A stretch of DNA of 20,380 bases, from IMG/VR virus record IMGVR_UViG_3300032323_000095, positions 1-20,380 of that record. The stretch is one strand, 5' to 3'. This document shows positions 3,188 through 20,130 of the stretch, one piece after another (position 1 is the first letter of the stretch; each line of letters opens with the position of its first letter). The stretch comes from a virus. Position numbers and translations under genes: made by a program. The notes below the pieces were generated by a model. That model was given only the letters and a program-made list of their open reading frames with translations. It searched no databases and was not told the origin of the DNA.

Positions 3188-5200
3188 ATGGATGAACAAA
3201 AACTAAAGGTCATTCTCGAAGCAGAGATAGACGATTCTATCGGCTATGTAGAGACCGAGACAGTAGAGCAACGCACAAAGGCGATCAACTACTACAATCG
3301 TTACGAGTATGGCAACGAGGTAGATGGTCGTTCTAAGATCGTAACAGGCGAAGTAGCCGAGGTCGTAGATGGTGCTTTACCTCAGTTAATGCGTATCTTT
3401 GCTGGATCAGACGAATTAGGTCGGTTCGAGCCAAGGATGCCAGGAGACGAGGAGTTTGCCAAGCAAGCTACCGAACTTACGAACTATGTGTTCTTTAACG
3501 ATAACGATGGTGTTATCCTCATGCATAACTGGATGAAGGATGCACTTCTACAGAAGAATGGAATCGTAAAGTATTGGTGGGAGGATAGCGAAGATCCTAC
3601 TAAGGAAGAATACAAAGGATTAAACGCAGAAGAACTAACACTTCTGTTTGCTGATGGTGAGATGGAGTTAATCAGCCAAGAGACAGAGGAAGTCGGCATA
3701 GACCCAATGGGTATGCCTATCCTTTCTTACAATGTAGTCATTAAAAAGAAAAAAGAAGTCGGCAAGGTCTGTGTAGAGAATGTGCCACCAGAGGAGTTCT
3801 TAATCGCCAAGCGCGATAAGAGCATCAAGAACGCTAAATTTGTCGCACATCGCACAGTCAAGACACGATCAGATTTAATTGCTATGGGCTATCCACAAGA
3901 CAAAGTGGACAAGATGCCAGCGTACAACGACCTTACTTACACTCCTGAAAGAGTAGCAAGGTACAGCGCAGGCGAGATGCCAGACGAGACACAAAGCCTA
4001 GACTTTACGATGCAAGAAGTAGAGTTGTTCGAATGCTATATTCGTACCGACTTTGATGGTGATGGGATTGCAGAACTCCGTAAGGTAGTTTATGCAGGCG
4101 ATCAGATTATTGACAACGAGGAAACAGATCACATTCCTTTTGCAAGCATCTGCCCTATTCCTATGCCACACAAATTCTTTGGTCAGAGTCTAGCCGATAG
4201 AGCAATGGACATACAGCTTATCAAGTCTACAATTACTCGTCAGATCCTAGATAACCTGTACCTAACCAATATGCCTAGGGTTACAGCCCTAGATGGACAA
4301 GTAAACCTAGACGATTTATTAACCTCATCGCCTGGCGGTGTAGTTCGGATTAAGTCTCAGGGTGCGGTTCAACCATTATCTGTACCGGCAACAGCATCAC
4401 AGTCGTTCCCAATGCTAGATTACATGGATCAGGTATTGCAGAAGCGTTCAGGCGTTACTTCTACAAGCCAAGGCATAGATCCTAACATTCTACAAAATAC
4501 CACAGCCACAGCGATTGCAGCAATGCAACAAGCAGGCTCTGGTCGTATTGAGATGATTGCTAGAATCTTTGCCGACACAGGTGTAAAAGACTTATTCGCA
4601 GGTATTTTCCACTTGATCCTAAAGTATCAGGACAAGCCAAGGGTCATTCGTTTACGAGGCAAGTATGTCTCTATTGACCCAAGAGAGTGGAAGAACAACT
4701 ACGATGTAACAGTCAATGTTGGTCTAGGCACAGGTAGCCAAGATCAGAAGATGGCTATGGCAGCGATGGTTATGCAGAAACAAGAGCAGATTCTGTCATC
4801 CCAAGGCTTTGCTAATCCGTTAGTAAGCGTGGGTCAGTATCGCAACACACTTGGTAAGTTTATCGAGGCAGCAGGGTACAAAGACTCAATGGAGTTCTTT
4901 AAAGAGATTCCACCAGAGCTAGACCAACAGTTGTCTCAGCCACAGCCACAGCAACAGCAACCTAACCCTGCGTTAGATGCGCTAATGGCACAAACACAGG
5001 CACAGATCGAAGTAGATCGTGCCAAAGCTCTAAACGACATCGAAATCGCTAAAGCAAAAGCACAAGCCTCTATTCAACTCGAAAGAGAGAAGGCAGCAGC
5101 TAACCTAGAACTTAAGACAGCAGAGTTCCAAGCAGAGGCACAGTTGAAAGCAGCACAAGTTGGTGCTAAATTAACTGGGGATGTCAGGATACCTGGATGA
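3188..5200 (+). CDS. Portal protein
   Basis: The 670-residue product starts at ATG 3188, directly after the terminase stop. It resembles the long portal proteins of podoviruses (P22-like class), which form the dodecameric ring for DNA entry and exit. Visible features are an N-terminal helical region with SKIVTGEVAEVVDGALPQLM, a central DFDGDGIAELR segment (Asp288 on) and the stem/wing region IPMPHKFFGQSLADRAMDIQ followed by LYLTNMPR. From about residue 575 comes a Q-rich linker, then an Ala/Lys/Glu-rich helix of about 65 residues. That helix would fit the helical C-terminal barrel known in P22. The position between the large terminase and the scaffold agrees. An ATGA overlap joins it to the next gene. 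Confidence 0.92.
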   Translation: MDEQKLKVILEAEIDDSIGYVETETVEQRTKAINYYNRYEYGNEVDGRSKIVTGEVAEVVDGALPQLMRIFAGSDELGRFEPRMPGDEEFAKQATELTNYVFFNDNDGVILMHNWMKDALLQKNGIVKYWWEDSEDPTKEEYKGLNAEELTLLFADGEMELISQETEEVGIDPMGMPILSYNVVIKKKKEVGKVCVENVPPEEFLIAKRDKSIKNAKFVAHRTVKTRSDLIAMGYPQDKVDKMPAYNDLTYTPERVARYSAGEMPDETQSLDFTMQEVELFECYIRTDFDGDGIAELRKVVYAGDQIIDNEETDHIPFASICPIPMPHKFFGQSLADRAMDIQLIKSTITRQILDNLYLTNMPRVTALDGQVNLDDLLTSSPGGVVRIKSQGAVQPLSVPATASQSFPMLDYMDQVLQKRSGVTSTSQGIDPNILQNTTATAIAAMQQAGSGRIEMIARIFADTGVKDLFAGIFHLILKYQDKPRVIRLRGKYVSIDPREWKNNYDVTVNVGLGTGSQDQKMAMAAMVMQKQEQILSSQGFANPLVSVGQYRNTLGKFIEAAGYKDSMEFFKEIPPELDQQLSQPQPQQQQPNPALDALMAQTQAQIEVDRAKALNDIEIAKAKAQASIQLEREKAAANLELKTAEFQAEAQLKAAQVGAKLTGDVRIPG

Positions 5201-7419: not shown

Positions 7420-8118
7420 ATGATCGTTTACATTATGGGAGGTCTGGGCAACCAGATGTTCCAATACGCAGCAGGATACGCAGTAGCTAAAACACTAGGA
7501 GAAACCCTAGAGTTGAATACTACTTTTTATCAAGACAACAAAAATAGACAATATGAACTAGGGGTTTTCCCTATATCGTTTCATGTAACAAATAATGTTG
7601 CAGAGCAGATACAGGAAAGACAGCATAGTTACCAAGAGATCACCAAGTCAGGAATGATGGTGGGATATTGGCAAAGTGAGAAATACTTTGACTTTGTAGA
7701 AGATGAGATCCGCAAGGAGTTTTATCTACCCAAGGCAGAGATAGACGATAACATGGTGGCAGTAACAGTCCGTAGAGGCGATTATTTGAGCCTACCAGAT
7801 GTTTTCGTACAGTTGGATGAGGCTTACTATAGGGAGGCTAGAAAGAACTTCCCTAACAGCGTTTTTGTGGTTTTCTCCGATGACCCTGAGTGGTGTGCAG
7901 AGAATCTAGAATGGGCTGATATGGTCATGCCTTGTAGCAATCCTGTGCAAGATTTAGCGTTGCTTTCTTCCTTTAAAAACCATATCATAGCGAATAGCTC
8001 GTATGGTTGGTGGGGTGCTTGGCTTGCTAAAGGAAACAAAGTAGTAGCACCAAAAAAGTGGTTCACCAATGGGCTAGACGATAGCGATATTATTCCTGAA
8101 AGGTGGATCAAACTGTGA
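7420..8118 (+). CDS. Alpha-1,2-fucosyltransferase-like enzyme (GT11)
   Basis: The 232-residue product has the GT11 motifs in order. These are GGLGNQMFQYAAG (residues 7-19), GYWQSEKYF (82-90), VRRGDY (117-122), FSDDPEW (152-158), SSFKNHIIANSSYGWWGAWL (183-202) and PKKWF. GT11 enzymes move L-fucose from GDP-fucose to a galactose residue. At the His of the usual HxRRGD motif there is a Thr (residue 116), and the chain is shorter than the typical 280-300 residues. No membrane segment is seen. ATG 7420 lies just behind a terminator with no visible ribosome site; a later ATG would remove the first beta strand. The gene overlaps the next at GTGA. The family call is strong; activity and acceptor are unproven. 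Confidence 0.9.
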   Translation: MIVYIMGGLGNQMFQYAAGYAVAKTLGETLELNTTFYQDNKNRQYELGVFPISFHVTNNVAEQIQERQHSYQEITKSGMMVGYWQSEKYFDFVEDEIRKEFYLPKAEIDDNMVAVTVRRGDYLSLPDVFVQLDEAYYREARKNFPNSVFVVFSDDPEWCAENLEWADMVMPCSNPVQDLALLSSFKNHIIANSSYGWWGAWLAKGNKVVAPKKWFTNGLDDSDIIPERWIKL

Positions 8119-8444
8119 AGAAATACCTAGAAACTGTAGATGGCGAGATTCGTACAGCATTATCGGATGGCGATGGTGGGATTATTATCCACTCCCAGAC
8201 CGATTTAACGGATTTTGCAGAGCATACAAAAGCGCAGTACAACAATAATCCTGGCAAAACAGGATGGTCAGGCGAAGTGTTTGACCCAAAGAACAAGATA
8301 GCAGAGTTACCCCTAGCAATTATTAATGATCTGAACGCTAAAGGCATTATGCGTGGCTTTCATATCCAAGACCCTAAAGCTCTTAAGAAATGGCTAAATG
8401 ACCCTGAAAACAGGGTATTTAGGACAAGAGGGGGTGAGGTATGA
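8115..8444 (+). CDS. Conserved phage protein of unknown function, 109 residues
   Basis: The preferred start is GTG 8115. It overlaps the fucosyltransferase stop as GTGA and lies eight bases behind AAGGTGG (8100-8106). An in-frame GTG at 8103 is less likely. The product shows IIIHSQTDLTDFAEHTKAQY, a GWSGEVF segment, AELPLAIINDLNAKGIMRGF and a C-terminal KKWLNDPENRVFRTRGGEV. The last stretch (WLND.....FRTR.G.V) recurs in small phage proteins next to connector genes, as I remember it. The function is unknown; a minor structural or assembly role is an inference from position. It overlaps the next gene at ATGA. Confidence 0.78.
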   Translation: MKKYLETVDGEIRTALSDGDGGIIIHSQTDLTDFAEHTKAQYNNNPGKTGWSGEVFDPKNKIAELPLAIINDLNAKGIMRGFHIQDPKALKKWLNDPENRVFRTRGGEV

Positions 8445-9076
8445 GAATCGCTATTTGTATCCCTGCTAGAGGGCAAATGGAGGTCGCTACAGCGTTTGAT
8501 TTGGTGGCGATGTGTGCTTATACCATTAAGACTACAAAACACGATATAGACCTGTTTACGAGTGCTGGAACGCTAATATTCGATCAGCGTAATAGCTTGG
8601 TAAAAACAGCCCTAGAAATAAAGGCAGACTATCTACTATTTGTAGATGCTGATATGAGGTTTCCAAAAGATACCTTAAAGATTTTAATGGCTCACGATAA
8701 AGATATTATCGGGGTCAACGCAACTACACGATCTGAGCCTGTTAAACCGACAGCTAAAAACTTTATTGTTAATCAAGATCAATCAGTAGATTGGCTGCCG
8801 ATCTATTCCAACGCAATGTCAGGAATCAGTAAAGCTGATGGCATTGGCTGTGGAGTAATGTTGGTTAAGACCAAAGTGTTTAAAGCAATGGAAGAACCCT
8901 ACTTCTACTTTGAACAACTTGGTAATAACAAAATACTAGGTGAGGATATTTACTTCTGCATTAAGGCAAAAGACGAAGGATTTGATACTTGGGTAGATCA
9001 CGATCTATCGAAAGGCATCCGGCACATCGGGCAGTATGTCTATGGCTGGGATAACATCGAAATACCAAAAGAGTAA
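8441..9076 (+). CDS. GT2-like glycosyltransferase (GT-A fold)
   Basis: The 211-residue product starts at ATG 8441, overlapping the previous stop and behind a GAGGGGGTGAGGT purine run. It has a nucleotide-sugar transferase layout: RIAICIPARGQ at the N-terminus, LIFDQRNSLVKTAL (residues 45-58), the metal-binding DAD at 69-71 in FVDADMRFP, GCGVMLVKTKVF (136-147), GED (167-169) and WVDHDLSKGIRHIG (184-197). These motifs are shared with phage GT-A enzymes annotated as family 2. It probably transfers a sugar to a virion or host acceptor; DNA-base glucosylation is possible, but no base-modifying gene is in view. It is separated from the fucosyltransferase by only one gene. Substrate and target are unknown. 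Confidence 0.82.
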   Translation: MRIAICIPARGQMEVATAFDLVAMCAYTIKTTKHDIDLFTSAGTLIFDQRNSLVKTALEIKADYLLFVDADMRFPKDTLKILMAHDKDIIGVNATTRSEPVKPTAKNFIVNQDQSVDWLPIYSNAMSGISKADGIGCGVMLVKTKVFKAMEEPYFYFEQLGNNKILGEDIYFCIKAKDEGFDTWVDHDLSKGIRHIGQYVYGWDNIEIPKE

Positions 9077-9714: not shown

Positions 9715-10101
9715 ATGGCTGAAATGTCAAACTACCTAGAGAATGCACTTATTAATGCAACTCTACGAGCAACAACCTTTACCTCTCCTACAACAGTTTA
9801 TGTTGGTCTCTATACAGCAGATCCAACCGATGCTGGATCAGGTACAGAGGTAAGCGGTGGATCGTATGCTCGCCAATCAGCTACATTTGGTGCGCCTAGT
9901 AACGGAGTATCTACCACGACTGCTGATATTACTTTCCCACAATGTACTTCTAGTTGGGGAACAGTCAGCCATATTGGAATCTTAGATGCACTTACTACCG
10001 GCAACCTTTTGTATCACACACCCCTTACGACATCTAAGGCAATTGATACAGGCGATTTGTTTAAGATTGCATCAGGAAGTCTGACAGTAACATTGGCTTA
10101 A
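9715..10101 (+). CDS. Phage structural protein of the Gp80-like family
   Basis: The 128-residue product starts at ATG 9715 behind AAGGAAA (9704-9710). Its sequence runs NYLENALINATLR, then TVYVGLYTADPTDAGSGTEV, SYARQSATFG, ITFPQCTSSWGTVSHIGILD and LLYHTPLTT, ending in GSLTVTLA. This order is typical of a widespread small beta-rich phage family (Gp80-like), often annotated as tail fibre or minor tail protein. In this window it lies between the adaptor and a repeat fibre, so a tail or decoration role is likely. It is close to the usual family length. The exact position in the virion is unknown. Confidence 0.8.
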   Translation: MAEMSNYLENALINATLRATTFTSPTTVYVGLYTADPTDAGSGTEVSGGSYARQSATFGAPSNGVSTTTADITFPQCTSSWGTVSHIGILDALTTGNLLYHTPLTTSKAIDTGDLFKIASGSLTVTLA

Positions 10102-10102
10102 T

Positions 10103-10987
10103 ATGCCAGCAGATTACTGTGGCGCGTTCTCAATTGATAGCATAGATCAGTTTGGAACGCTTGAACAAATACTTATTTCGTTTGATGATCCAATATGGAA
10201 CTCACCTAACACTTGTATTCTGTATGGTGATGGATCGGTAACAGCTAACGCTAGTGCAGAAGCTGTTGGTATCAGGACAAGAGAAGGTGTAGGCTCAGTA
10301 ACAGCAGATGCTTCTGTTGTTGCAGTAGGACAAAAAACAAGTTTTGCTAGTGCAGACATAAGTGCAGATGCAACAGTAGTTGCTAATGGATCTGCTATCC
10401 GTACATCATCGGCAGACATAACAGCCAATGCCTCAGTAACAGCAGAAGCTGTAAGAGTATTGGTAGGCGAAGGAATAGTAAATGGAACAGCAACAGTTAA
10501 TGCAACAGGAAACGGAATACTGGTCGGATCTGCTACTGTCGATGCAGAAGCAAGTGTGGCAAGTACAGGTATTCGAGTTAGAACAGGTGATGCGACAATT
10601 ACAGGCAATGCTTCTGTGGAATCTGAGGCTGTTAGGCTTAGAACATCTACAGCAGAAATAACAGGCACAGCAACAGTAACAGCCCTAGGCGGTGTTGAAT
10701 ACGCTGGTGTGGCTATCATTGTTGCTAATGCGTATGTAGATGCACAAGCACAAGCAGTTTATTCTGCTAATGCAGTTATTACAGCAAATGCCACAGCAGT
10801 CGCAAGTGGTAATGTATTAGGCGATAATTGGACAGACGAGACAGCAGGATCAGAGGCTTGGACAGGTATATCAGCAAGCACTACAACATGGACAGCGGAG
10901 ACAGCAGGCTCAGAGTTTTGGACAGCTATTACAGCTACAACGACAACTTGGTCAAATATATCTAGCGGAAACTCACAATGGCAATAA
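10103..10987 (+). CDS. Repeat fibre protein: ten 20-residue repeats plus a Trp ladder
   Basis: The 294-residue product starts at ATG 10103. Residues 1-40 form a unique head (DQFGTLEQILISFDDPIW). Residues 41-240 are ten consecutive repeats of exactly 20 residues with no insertion or deletion. The pattern is roughly GsaxITAnASVxAxgxxxxx, with Ala fixed at the tenth position. Residues 241-294 keep the same period but carry Trp at 243, 253, 263, 273, 283 and 293, within TAETAGSEFWTAIT-like units. The composition is Ala/Thr/Val/Ser/Gly-rich with very few charges. This suggests a beta-solenoid or stacked beta-strand fibre. I do not recognise a named family. Its place between adaptor and nozzle genes suggests a tail or head-fibre component. 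The ATG of the next gene lies inside its 3' end (10-base overlap). Confidence 0.82.
   Translation: MPADYCGAFSIDSIDQFGTLEQILISFDDPIWNSPNTCILYGDGSVTANASAEAVGIRTREGVGSVTADASVVAVGQKTSFASADISADATVVANGSAIRTSSADITANASVTAEAVRVLVGEGIVNGTATVNATGNGILVGSATVDAEASVASTGIRVRTGDATITGNASVESEAVRLRTSTAEITGTATVTALGGVEYAGVAIIVANAYVDAQAQAVYSANAVITANATAVASGNVLGDNWTDETAGSEAWTGISASTTTWTAETAGSEFWTAITATTTTWSNISSGNSQWQ
10223..10822 (+). repeat. Ten degenerate 60-base tandem repeats inside the fibre gene
   Basis: The 20-residue protein repeats (residues 41-240) correspond to ten 60-base units in perfect register. The DNA copies have diverged while the protein pattern and spacing are kept, so they are old repeats under selection and not a fresh expansion. 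Confidence 0.85.
10823..10984 (+). repeat. C-terminal Trp repeats (60-base units with 30-base half-units)
   Basis: Two and a half further 60-base units follow in the same register and encode a Trp every ten residues. The DNA is here much more alike: 10829-10860 and 10889-10920 share most bases (TTGGACAG...GAGACAGCAGG.TCAGAG). This points to a more recent duplication than in the upstream repeats. Confidence 0.85.
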
Positions 10988-12417
10988 GTAGAATAAATTT
11001 CGGGGAGTGGACTCCAGATCAGCCAGGTATTACTAATGGTCTAAGACGAGCAGAGAATGTTTACTCTAAAGCAGTAGGCTATGGTTCTATTCCTACAGTA
11101 GTAGATTACTCGGCAGCAGCATCCGAAAACCTAAACAATGTTGTTGCAGGCAAGACAACGGCAGGAGCTACAACTGTATTTGCTGGTGGCTCTACAAAAC
11201 TATTTAAGTTAGATTCTGGCGATTTGTCATTAGACAATGTGTCTAAATCAGGTAATTACTCAACTCCTACAGATCAGCGTTGGAAGTTTACGCAGTTTGG
11301 TAATGTTATTGTTGCAGCTAACGGACAAGCAAAATTACAAGGATATAACTTAAACAGTTCATCTTTATTTGCAGACTTAGCAGCCGATGCACCAACAGCA
11401 CGATTTGTAACTGTAGTGCGAGACTTTGTAGTATCAGGCTATCAATCTAGTTATCCTAATAGAGTGCAATGGTCAGCATTGGGAGACGAGTCCTCTTGGA
11501 CAGCATCTGCTACGACCCAAGCAGACTTCCAAGATATTCCCGATGGTGGATCTGTAGTAGGTGTTACTGGTGGTGAATTTGGTCTAGTCTTTATGGATCG
11601 AGCAATCCATCGTATGTCTTATGTTGGTAGCCCACTTATATTCCAGTTTGACAATATCAGTCGTAACTTAGGATGTTATGAGGCTAACTCAATTATTCAG
11701 TATGGTGGCACATCGTTCTTTTTAGGAGACGATGGATTCTATGCTTGTGATGGTCAAAATGTAGTTCCAATCGGTAGCGAGAAAGTAAACAGATTCTTCT
11801 TTGATAATGTAGAAGAAAGCACTTTGTATCTTATGTCGGCTGCGGTAGATCCAATCAAGAAACTTATTATTTGGGCATACGCATCCAATAGTTCATCTAC
11901 TCCTGATAGTTTGTTAATCTACAATTACCAGACTCAACGATGGACTAGCGGTACAACCCATGTCGATAGAATTGCATCTACATCTACTCCTGCCGTTACT
12001 TTAGAAGGCATGGATGTCTATGGAAACCTAGACACCATTTTGACTAGCTTTGATAGCCGACTTTGGCTTGGTGGCAGACTGCTGTTAGCCGGTGTAGATG
12101 GTGCAAAGATTGTTACCTTTTCAGGTGCTAACGCTACAGCTTACATAGAAACAGGTGATATAGAAGTGCCAGGATCTACCTCATCTATTACATTAGTAAA
12201 ACCTACTGTTGAGGGTGGCTCTGGTAGCGTGGCTTTGCTATCTCGTAGGCTTTTAACAGAGTCCACAGTTTTTGGATCACAGACAGCAGCAGATGCCGAA
12301 AATAGAGTGTCTGTGCGTGGTGTTGGTCGCTATCATCGTCTACAATTAACCCCTACAGGTAGTTGGACATCAGCAGTCGGAATGGACATAGATTTAAGCC
12401 CTCTAGGAACTAGATAA
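10978..12417 (+). CDS. Tail nozzle / DNA-stabilisation-like protein
   Basis: The 479-residue product starts at ATG 10978 within the end of the fibre gene. It opens with RINFGEWTPDQPGITNGLRR, then AENVYSKAVGYGSIPTVVDY. This opening is typical of a podovirus tail protein family that resembles P22 gp10 and SU10-type nozzles. The rest alternates short beta segments with Gly/Asp turns, such as FAGGSTKLFKL, FGNVIVAANG, FVVSGYQS, VQWSALGDESSW, GLVFMDRAIHRMSYVG, IIQYGGTSFFLGDDGFYACD and LLIYNYQTQRWT. That fits a beta-propeller. Such proteins close the tail tip and hold packaged DNA until ejection. No enzymatic motif is seen. The family link is from remembered pattern; the beta-propeller assignment is an inference. 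Confidence 0.78.
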   Translation: MAISRINFGEWTPDQPGITNGLRRAENVYSKAVGYGSIPTVVDYSAAASENLNNVVAGKTTAGATTVFAGGSTKLFKLDSGDLSLDNVSKSGNYSTPTDQRWKFTQFGNVIVAANGQAKLQGYNLNSSSLFADLAADAPTARFVTVVRDFVVSGYQSSYPNRVQWSALGDESSWTASATTQADFQDIPDGGSVVGVTGGEFGLVFMDRAIHRMSYVGSPLIFQFDNISRNLGCYEANSIIQYGGTSFFLGDDGFYACDGQNVVPIGSEKVNRFFFDNVEESTLYLMSAAVDPIKKLIIWAYASNSSSTPDSLLIYNYQTQRWTSGTTHVDRIASTSTPAVTLEGMDVYGNLDTILTSFDSRLWLGGRLLLAGVDGAKIVTFSGANATAYIETGDIEVPGSTSSITLVKPTVEGGSGSVALLSRRLLTESTVFGSQTAADAENRVSVRGVGRYHRLQLTPTGSWTSAVGMDIDLSPLGTR

Positions 12418-13214
12418 TGTTTAGAGCATTACCCCCATTTGGTAGCGATCCTCGTGGAGTAGCCGAGGTAGTCAATGGGATTATGAATGGCAAAACCAAC
12501 AATACAGGGTCGGTAACTTTAGCAACAGGTGGTGCATCTACTACAACCATTACAGATGCTCGTATCGGTGTAGATTCTGTCATTCTGTTAATGCCAACAG
12601 ACGATGTATCATCTACAGTGTATTACCCTTATTTAGCAGTACAAGACGATACAGACCAAGCTGCGACAACAACTACAGCAGCCAATATTATGTCGTTTAG
12701 CACTACAGACTATGCTTTAGGTGCAAGTCTAGTAACAAATACGAAACTAACAGCAGGTTACTCTGGACTCTACAACATTCAGTTTAGTGTGCAGTTTAAA
12801 AACACAGTTAATGATCCTGAGTTTGTAGATGTATGGTTTAGAAAAAATGGTACTAATGTAGCAGCATCAAACAGTAAATTTGGTATCTCACAAAGAAAAA
12901 GTGCAGGCATTCCAAGTCATATGATTGGCTCATTAAACTTTTTTATTGGTTTAGAGAAAAACGATTATGTAGAGTTAGCTTGGAGACCATCTGATATTGG
13001 TGTAACGATTGAGCATTTTGGTACAGATACTTCACCTACTAGACCAGCAACACCTAGCATCATAGCCACAATGAGTTATCTATCATCAAATGGCTATACC
13101 AGTAATCTTTTTACAATGCCTTATATATCAGCAGTAACCAACGGAAGTGCCACTATTAGCCATCCAGCTAATACAGTATCAGGCATGACTCATAAATACA
13201 TCATCGTAGGATAA
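12417..13214 (+). CDS. Virion protein with apparent inserted jelly-roll domain
   Basis: The 265-residue product starts at ATG 12417, sharing one base with the upstream stop (TAATG). Residues 1-62 (MFRALPPFGSDPRGVAEVVN, NGIMNGKTNNTGSVTLATGG, ITDARIGVDSVILLMP) and residues 238-265 (SAVTNGSATISHPANTVSGM, THKYIIVG) together look like a known small phage protein of about 90-110 residues. Between them, residues about 68-222 look like a jelly-roll of the C1q/TNF-like type: SGLYNIQFSVQFKNT, VDVWFRKNGTNVA, IGSLNFFIGLEKNDYVELAW and IIATMSYLS. Such domains bind sugars or proteins on surfaces, so a receptor-contact or decoration role is plausible. The gene sits among tail genes. The role is inferred. Confidence 0.75.
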   Translation: MFRALPPFGSDPRGVAEVVNGIMNGKTNNTGSVTLATGGASTTTITDARIGVDSVILLMPTDDVSSTVYYPYLAVQDDTDQAATTTTAANIMSFSTTDYALGASLVTNTKLTAGYSGLYNIQFSVQFKNTVNDPEFVDVWFRKNGTNVAASNSKFGISQRKSAGIPSHMIGSLNFFIGLEKNDYVELAWRPSDIGVTIEHFGTDTSPTRPATPSIIATMSYLSSNGYTSNLFTMPYISAVTNGSATISHPANTVSGMTHKYIIVG

Positions 13215-18582: not shown

Positions 18583-20130
18583 ATGGCATATACAAAGTAT
18601 TCTCTAACCCCTGCTAATAACACAGCTACTCCTCCAGATGGCGCACCAGAGGGGATGTTACCTTCTGCGGTAAACGATACTATGCGCGATATGATGGCAC
18701 AGATCCGAGACTGTGGAGATGGTATTCGTGATGGCACATATACCATGACTGCACCCAAGATCACAGGTGGAACAATTACTGGCGCAACCTTAACAGGTAA
18801 TACCTTTACAAGTCCTGTTATTTCTGGTGGCTCGATTAACAATACACCTATCGGTGCTACAACAGCATCTACAGGTGCTTTTTCTACATTGTCTGCTACA
18901 GGCGCAACAACTTTTAGCGGTGCAACAGTAGTCTCTGGAAGCCTAACAGCTAATACTTTTTCTAGCTCTGGCGCAACAATTACTGGTGGCTCAGTATCAG
19001 GAATCACCGACCTAGCAATAGCCGATGGTGGTACAGGAGCATCTACAGCAGCAGCAGCTAGAACAAACCTAGGATTAGATGGTTTTGTTAACATGAAGAA
19101 CCGCATCATCAATGGTGCGATGGTGATTGACCAGCGTAATGCTGGTGCTAGTGTTACTGCAACAACTTCTAATTTATATACTTTAGATAGATGGCAATCT
19201 GTAGCTTCTGCTAGTTCTAAGTTTACAGTTCAACAAAATGCTGGTTCTGTTACACCGCCAGCAGGATTTACAAATTATCTTGGATGCACTTCTTCTGCCG
19301 CAACATCTTTGGGTGCAACAGACAATTATCAAATTGTGCAAACAATAGAAGGTTTTAATAGTGGTGACTTAGCATGGGGAACTGCTAATGCAAAGACAGT
19401 AACTCTATCTTTTTGGGTTTACAGTTCGCTAACAGGAACTTTTGGCGGTGCAATAACAAACTACAGTTTAAATCGTGGTTACCCTTTTACATTTAGCATT
19501 TCTTCTGCAAACACATGGGAATACAAAACAGTAACAATTACTGGTGACACAAGCGGTTCTTGGAATAACGGAACTAATAGCGGTGGAATTTGCTTGCGTT
19601 TTAGTCTTGGCACAGGCTCTACTTATAGTGGAACTGCTGGTGCTTGGGCTGGCTCGCAACTATTTTCAGCCACAGGAGCAACATCCGTAGTAGGAACAAA
19701 CGGAGCAACCTTCTATATCACAGGAGTTCAGCTAGAGGTAGGCTCTACAGCTACTAGCTTTGATTACAGACCTTATGGAACTGAGTTACAGCTTTGCCAA
19801 CGCTATTATCAAAAAACCTATGATGTTGGAACTGTTCCAGGCACAACCTATAACTTTGAATATGCTCCCCCAGCTACGGCAATAGGAACAGGAAACTTTG
19901 GTATGCCTTGCGGTAGGTCTTTTGTAGTTTCCATGAGGGCAACACCAACAATTACAACCTATGATGGTGATGGTAATGCTGGCAAGATTTCCCAATGGAG
20001 TGTTGGAAATAATCAAAGTTATGGCTCTGTTGGGGCAACACAAAACCAAATAACTGCTTTTGATTTTGGAAACAATACAACTTTTGGTAGGCAATTTCCT
20101 TTTGCTTTTGTAGCAAGTTCGGAGTTATAA
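18583..20130 (+). CDS. Tail fibre / receptor-binding protein
   Basis: The 515-residue product starts at ATG 18583 behind AAGGAAA. It has three parts. Residues 1-55 (AYTKYSLTPANNTATPPDGA and NDTMRDMMAQIRDCGDGIRD) are an anchor seen in other phage fibres. Residues 56-165 are Thr/Gly/Ser repeats (TGGTITGATLTGNTFTSPVI) ending in the collar-like ADGGTGASTAAAARTNLGL (147-165). The C-terminus starts at NRIINGAMVIDQRNAG (173-188) and contains TFYITGVQLEVGSTATSFDY and RPYGTELQLCQRYYQK, a beta-sandwich type often linked to carbohydrate binding in fibres. It probably binds the host surface. The small gene after it starts two bases beyond its stop. The fibre call is strong; the receptor is unknown. Confidence 0.88.
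   Translation: MAYTKYSLTPANNTATPPDGAPEGMLPSAVNDTMRDMMAQIRDCGDGIRDGTYTMTAPKITGGTITGATLTGNTFTSPVISGGSINNTPIGATTASTGAFSTLSATGATTFSGATVVSGSLTANTFSSSGATITGGSVSGITDLAIADGGTGASTAAAARTNLGLDGFVNMKNRIINGAMVIDQRNAGASVTATTSNLYTLDRWQSVASASSKFTVQQNAGSVTPPAGFTNYLGCTSSAATSLGATDNYQIVQTIEGFNSGDLAWGTANAKTVTLSFWVYSSLTGTFGGAITNYSLNRGYPFTFSISSANTWEYKTVTITGDTSGSWNNGTNSGGICLRFSLGTGSTYSGTAGAWAGSQLFSATGATSVVGTNGATFYITGVQLEVGSTATSFDYRPYGTELQLCQRYYQKTYDVGTVPGTTYNFEYAPPATAIGTGNFGMPCGRSFVVSMRATPTITTYDGDGNAGKISQWSVGNNQSYGSVGATQNQITAFDFGNNTTFGRQFPFAFVASSEL

Follow-up and report, generated by a model that had tools for sequence, protein, structure and literature searches.

Ten 20-residue repeats and a tryptophan tail suggest a docking adaptor for trimeric tail fibres in a short-tailed phage

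What is the role in the virion of a protein built around 20-residue repeats and encoded between the adaptor and the nozzle of a phage tail? The window analysed here, a single virus contig of 20,380 nucleotides (IMG/VR virus record IMGVR_UViG_3300032323_000095), comes from environmental DNA and represents a phage with a short tail, whose portal, capsid and adaptor genes are of the SU10 group (Pfam E 1.1e-222, 1e-97 and 3.2e-36, respectively). The repeat protein (Table 1), so far undescribed, is common to many of its relatives, and a previous reading of the sequence had taken it for a fibre. How short phage tails attach their fibres has been seen in few structures. Our results suggest that this protein is a spacer-and-socket that holds host-binding fibres, not a fibre itself, and we consider it probable, with moderate confidence, that it acts as a virion docking adaptor for trimeric tail fibres, a role that we infer from motif, spacing and gene neighbourhood.

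Table 1. Features of the window that bear on the repeat protein.
Feature	Position	Strand	Basis
gp80-like gene, PF23140 (podophage GP4 fibre I)	9715-10101	+	Pfam E 8.5e-50
Repeat-protein gene, 294 aa	10103-10987	+	ORF; 68 distinct full homologues (public virus contigs and phages, window copy counted)
Nozzle-like dock motif FSIDSIDQFGTLEQILISFDDPIW, residues 9-32 of the repeat protein	10127-10198	+	Score against own nozzle, HMM
Ten 20-residue repeats, predicted beta-solenoid spacer	10223-10822 (residues 41-240)	+	Autocorrelation, AlphaFold model
C-terminal tail, six tryptophans exactly 10 residues apart	10823-10984	+	W spacing across the family
Nozzle protein	10978-12417	+	PHROG 3287 E 7.5e-76; PDB 8zkk nozzle gp16 E 5.5e-13
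Nozzle loop VTLEGMDVYGNLDTILTSFDSRLW, residues 340-363, common dock motif	11995-12066	+	Sequence alignment to SU10 gp17 dock loop
Tail fibre, N-terminus PEGMLPSAVNDTMRDMMAQIRD, candidate dock client	18583-20130	+	PHROG 4492 tail fibre protein, E 7e-51

The strict 20-residue repetition was confirmed. Row alignment and autocorrelation recovered the ten units without gaps and with the exact limits proposed earlier; position 10 is Ala in 10/10 units, in agreement with the Ala said to close the first half of each unit, position 6 is Val or Ile in all ten and position 12 is Val in eight. In the BLOSUM62 autocorrelation of the protein, z reached 11.3 at lag 20, 9.1 at lag 40 and 10.1 at lag 60, and the lag-20 signal was reached by none of 2000 shuffles at any tested lag; among 365 proteins from 24 phage regions the window protein had the highest lag-20 score, with its relatives ranking next. 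The units have indeed diverged, sharing 32-63% identity in DNA and 20-60% in protein. Between relatives, units at the same position shared more identity (0.46 and 0.45) than units at different positions (0.30), which implies that the units are old and have not been homogenised.

The commonest lengths among full relatives of the protein are 294, 317 and 318 aa, lengths of 274 and 214 aa being rarer, so that whole blocks of 20 residues are gained or lost. The two relatives of 214 aa lack four whole repeats, in the one of 274 aa the tryptophan tail is 20 residues shorter, and the homologues of 317/318 aa differ at the N-terminus and carry a second copy of the dock motif. The dN/dS values of the gene against its relatives (0.11-0.48) indicate purifying selection, and the proposal that the 20-residue register is kept by selection was supported. 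A frameshift or antisense artefact was discarded, since the ORF is conserved under this selection.

The sequence-only reading thus described a real feature well, but probably misread its function and left its extent incomplete, as it mentioned neither the tryptophans of the tail (W243, W253, W263, W273, W283 and W293) nor the similarity of the N-terminus to the nozzle. The spacing 10,10,10,10,10 is found in 59 of the 64 family members having a recognised tail start, and the remaining five have five tryptophans (three members) or four (two members). At the loci from distant phages the spacing is nearly always ten, with six tryptophans in 65 loci, four in 15 and three in 3. The pattern W-x9-W-x9-W occurred in 8 of the 365 proteins of the 24 phage regions, and each of the eight was the 20-periodic member of a cluster of gp80-like and fibre genes. 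In the AlphaFold model the tail has pLDDT values of 32-41 and no resolved fold.

At the other end of the protein, residues 9-32 gave an ungapped score of 57 against residues 340-363 of the window's own nozzle (mean 11.5 and maximum 42 in 3000 shuffles of the nozzle) and of at most 12 against eleven other window proteins. An HMM built from the first motif copy of the longer homologues matched nozzles, with a best E of 2.9e-6, and nothing else convincing. The nozzle loop was present in 53/53 full nozzles examined. By sequence only, and with the Ig insertion of SU10 removed beforehand, the window loop aligns at the place of the dock loop of SU10 gp17 (PIWSDFQEITWDDPSIKELVW); the window nozzle itself was predicted poorly (pLDDT 33.5, shallow alignment). 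Nozzles occur in two lengths, 479 aa, as in the window, and ~560 aa (L041:1254-2921), the longer ones having an additional Ig-like-looking stretch near residue 90.

In SU10 the dock loop lies at the margin of blade 1 of the nozzle propeller, where W839, W847 and W857 of gp17, in a quasi-threefold arrangement, hold the trimeric short tail fibre, each of whose chains contributes Tyr23-Ile24-Tyr25 to the clamp around them (PMC9509320). Three aromatics 8-10 residues apart on one chain, as in this dock, are found in the repeat protein both in W243-W293 and in F9-F17-F27, the latter being aromatic/hydrophobic motif positions 8 and 10 apart, as in SU10.

We propose that residues 41-240 would act as a stiff spacer, probably a beta-solenoid ~5 nm long in which each of the ten turns takes up 20 residues, and that the C-terminal tail would offer tryptophans every ten residues, three consecutive ones forming a star with three points for the N-terminus of one trimeric fibre to grip, as at the SU10 nozzle loop. 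With three tryptophans per fibre, the six-tryptophan tail would have room for two fibres at most. The N-terminal motif, a copy of the dock loop of its own nozzle, might bind the same fibre type or site, and the repeat protein and the gp80-like collar protein would jointly provide fibre sites in addition to those of the nozzle. The four or five tryptophans of some relatives speak against the docking reading, as multiples of three are not strictly kept, and so do the difference in spacing from SU10, the tail left unresolved by AlphaFold, the single reasonable model and, in the window's own clade, a nozzle gene rather than a fibre gene in the next place.

The modules of the repeat protein evolve at different rates: between the window protein and L031, L035 and L047, dN was 0.00-0.01 for residues 1-40, 0.54-0.55 for the repeats and 0.09-0.13 for the tryptophan tail. 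These values bear on the alternative that the protein is itself a homotrimeric host-binding tail fibre, anchored by its N-terminus, with the repeats as shaft and the W-rich end as tip, because a tip is expected to be the fastest-evolving part, yet here the tail changes far more slowly than the repeats. Whole-unit length changes and regular beta repeats are typical of fibre shafts, and the gene sits where SU10 has fibre genes. In fact, the position between adaptor and nozzle, formerly judged unusual for a host-binding fibre, is shared by the SU10 long-tail-fibre genes gp12-gp13, located between adaptor gp11 and nozzle gp17, and ctXG6705 and Venkman contain large, whole fibre cassettes between adaptor and nozzle. 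However, the N-terminus is a copy not of a fibre N-terminus but of the nozzle loop by which SU10 holds its fibres, the C-terminus, the expected place of a receptor-binding tip, is a conserved W-x9-W series resembling a fibre dock, and a separate fibre-like gene directly follows in related groups. Together, these observations make the host-binding role doubtful, and we regard the protein as unlikely to be such a fibre.

In the window the fibre gene lies 7.6 kb from the repeat-protein gene, which is followed instead by the nozzle gene, as in 77/77 loci of its own clade showing the downstream side. The N-terminus of this fibre is of the class found directly after the repeat protein in ctXG6705 and Venkman. 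Repeats of 20 residues with a tryptophan tail, near a gp80-like gene, were found in ctXG6705, ct2t2046, Venkman, C72C1, phiM5, ctjtQ328 and ctvy9321, the periodicity of the phiM5 version being weak (z 3.1-3.2). The next gene encodes, in phiM5, ctvy9321 and ctjtQ328, a tail fibre with one common N-terminus or a close variant of it and, in ctXG6705 and Venkman, a fibre with an EG-type N-terminus (NINIAEGCSPANVNNAIR). Within the ctjtQ328 group a KPEVG-type fibre N-terminus begins the next gene in 75 of 80 loci, which are related and do not represent 80 independent events. Within the ctXG6705 group an EG-type gene comes next in 6/11 loci by script; by eye, variants of the EG type follow in L192 and in L189, which is truncated, two loci have another fibre-like start and one has an endonuclease-like gene. 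We take both types of N-terminus to be marks of trimeric fibres. The nozzle loop is present in ctnlZ23, where the gp80-like and the repeat protein are absent between adaptor and nozzle; the nozzles of phiM5, ctvy9321 and ctjtQ328 have no recognisable loop, and these phages keep the W-tail protein beside the fibre gene. This complementarity, judged by eye in a few phages, agrees with a dock carried by the nozzle, by the repeat protein or, as in the window, by both. In the particle proteome of phiM5 the distant relative gp18 was not marked as detected, its neighbours gp17 and gp19 being marked, which weighs against the docking reading. A scan with gp18 found no relatives.

Several other genes of these regions deserve mention. 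The gene after the window nozzle (12417-13214; N-terminus FGSDPRGVAEVVNGIMNGKTNNTG), for which no family was found, would be a tail needle or knob by position, and a gene resembling it also follows the nozzle of ct2t2046 (L084:14487-15272). By eye, the structural region of the window contains glycosyltransferase-like genes (7420-8118, 8441-9076 and 2-664), one of them fucosyltransferase-like (MGGLGNQMFQYAAGYAVAKTLG). In MEP401, the 20-periodic L083:3671-4486 and the next small gene (4489-4794) have ends of the YVKVSGxW type with three tryptophans ~13 residues apart, perhaps another type of dock. The deposited names of some relatives are misleading: L085:11992-12708 and L082:11938-12714 appear as E3 ubiquitin-protein ligase HERC6 and serine-rich adhesin.

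Directly upstream of the repeat-protein gene lies the gp80-like gene, in 74/74 own-clade loci showing that side, and such constancy implies that both products probably work in one fibre assembly. This neighbourhood would also agree with a repeat protein that forms the core strand of a chain-like fibre I, with gp80-like subunits arranged along the 20-residue repeats, even more so as distant phages also have gp80-like genes within or close to this cluster, among them Gram-positive myophages whose repeats are fused to a Mu gp48-like protein. Nevertheless, the repeat protein has no homologue among solved chains, nor does the gene that follows gp80 in BcepMigl, a GP4-like phage, match any; gp80 gave no sign of a 20-residue ligand, and the tryptophan tail would be left unexplained. 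A core strand therefore seems improbable to us. Of note, in the Gram-positive myophages PVJ1 (L094:5402-6427) and Lietuvens (L104:5403-6326) the gene after the gp80-like one encodes a Mu gp48-like protein (PF10076) with the 20-residue periodicity over its first ~130 residues (z20 5.5 in PVJ1 and 4.2 in Lietuvens), and that of PVJ1 also ends in W-rich repeats.

As to the fold, AlphaFold2 (47 sequences) modelled the repeat protein with a mean pLDDT of 60.9, and of 58-79 across most repeats; strands recurred every 20 residues in the best model, the one reasonable model out of five. Structure predictors lean to solenoids for repeat sequences. The beta-solenoid with 20-residue turns suggested earlier is likely on the strength of this model: the strands at +20 in the predicted single chain argue for it, and the modest pLDDT, the single good model and this leaning of predictors keep it short of proof. 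That the repeat region is instead an unfolded, flexible linker of low complexity, as the four poor models and a composition rich in Ala, Thr, Ser and Gly might indicate, is very improbable in view of the gap-free register, the fixed Ala and Val/Ile columns, the whole-block length changes and the regular strands of the best model.

The statement that no known family could be named held for Pfam, where no family was matched (PF23140 included), and for solved structures, a sequence search of which gave one chance match only; it did not hold entirely for PHROGs, owing to a weak partial match (E 8.5e-4) to PHROG 31951, a group without function. Neither Pfam nor PHROGs yielded a tail-fibre family match or a fibre-type N-terminus for this protein. 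Foldseek searches with the model found nothing with E <= 0.001 in the PDB and, among predicted viral structures, uncharacterised phage proteins as best matches. The left-handed beta-helices of GlmU and LpxD, alike in their short strands and similar number of residues per turn, were among the top-ranked matches but not significant (best E 0.53, probability 0.11), and we do not assign the protein to that class.

If the repeat protein is a docking adaptor, the combination of a gp80-like gene, 20-residue repeats and a tryptophan every ten residues would mark fibre-docking adaptors in many uncultured phages, would explain a class of proteins now annotated as hypothetical, "serine-rich adhesin" or "E3 ubiquitin-protein ligase", and would point to the neighbouring gene that encodes the true receptor binder. 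More tentatively, and with rather less confidence, one may think of fibre racks with several docks that would form a widespread family, as yet unnamed, each rack being a single chain with one or two nozzle-like docks at the N-terminus, a solenoid of 20 residues per turn and adjustable length, and one or two tryptophan docks at its end; with such racks, trimeric fibres could be added or branched without involving the nozzle. A literature search found no further descriptions of tryptophan star docks.

With respect to known systems, the constant upstream neighbour is a homologue of gp80, the fibre I protein of GP4 (PF23140; PDB 8jou); the repeat protein itself does not belong to that family, as the Pfam profile is unmatched and its sequence architecture is different. 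In JBD30, the receptor-binding protein is a trimer whose helix bundle receives the C-terminus of the baseplate hub (PMC11445458), so that a C-terminal chain end inserting into a trimeric fibre N-terminus is common to that system and to the proposed dock; the JBD30 protein is, however, the hub of a long-tailed phage and is not known to have 20-residue repeats or a tryptophan series. The dock of SU10 gp17 shares with the window the aromatics 8-10 residues apart on one chain and, by alignment, the place of the loop in the nozzle. It differs in the spacing of its tryptophans, 8 and 10 in SU10 and exactly 10 in the window tail, and in that the dock of SU10 is a nozzle loop, whereas in the window a separate repeat protein bears both an extra motif of the dock type and the tail of six tryptophans.
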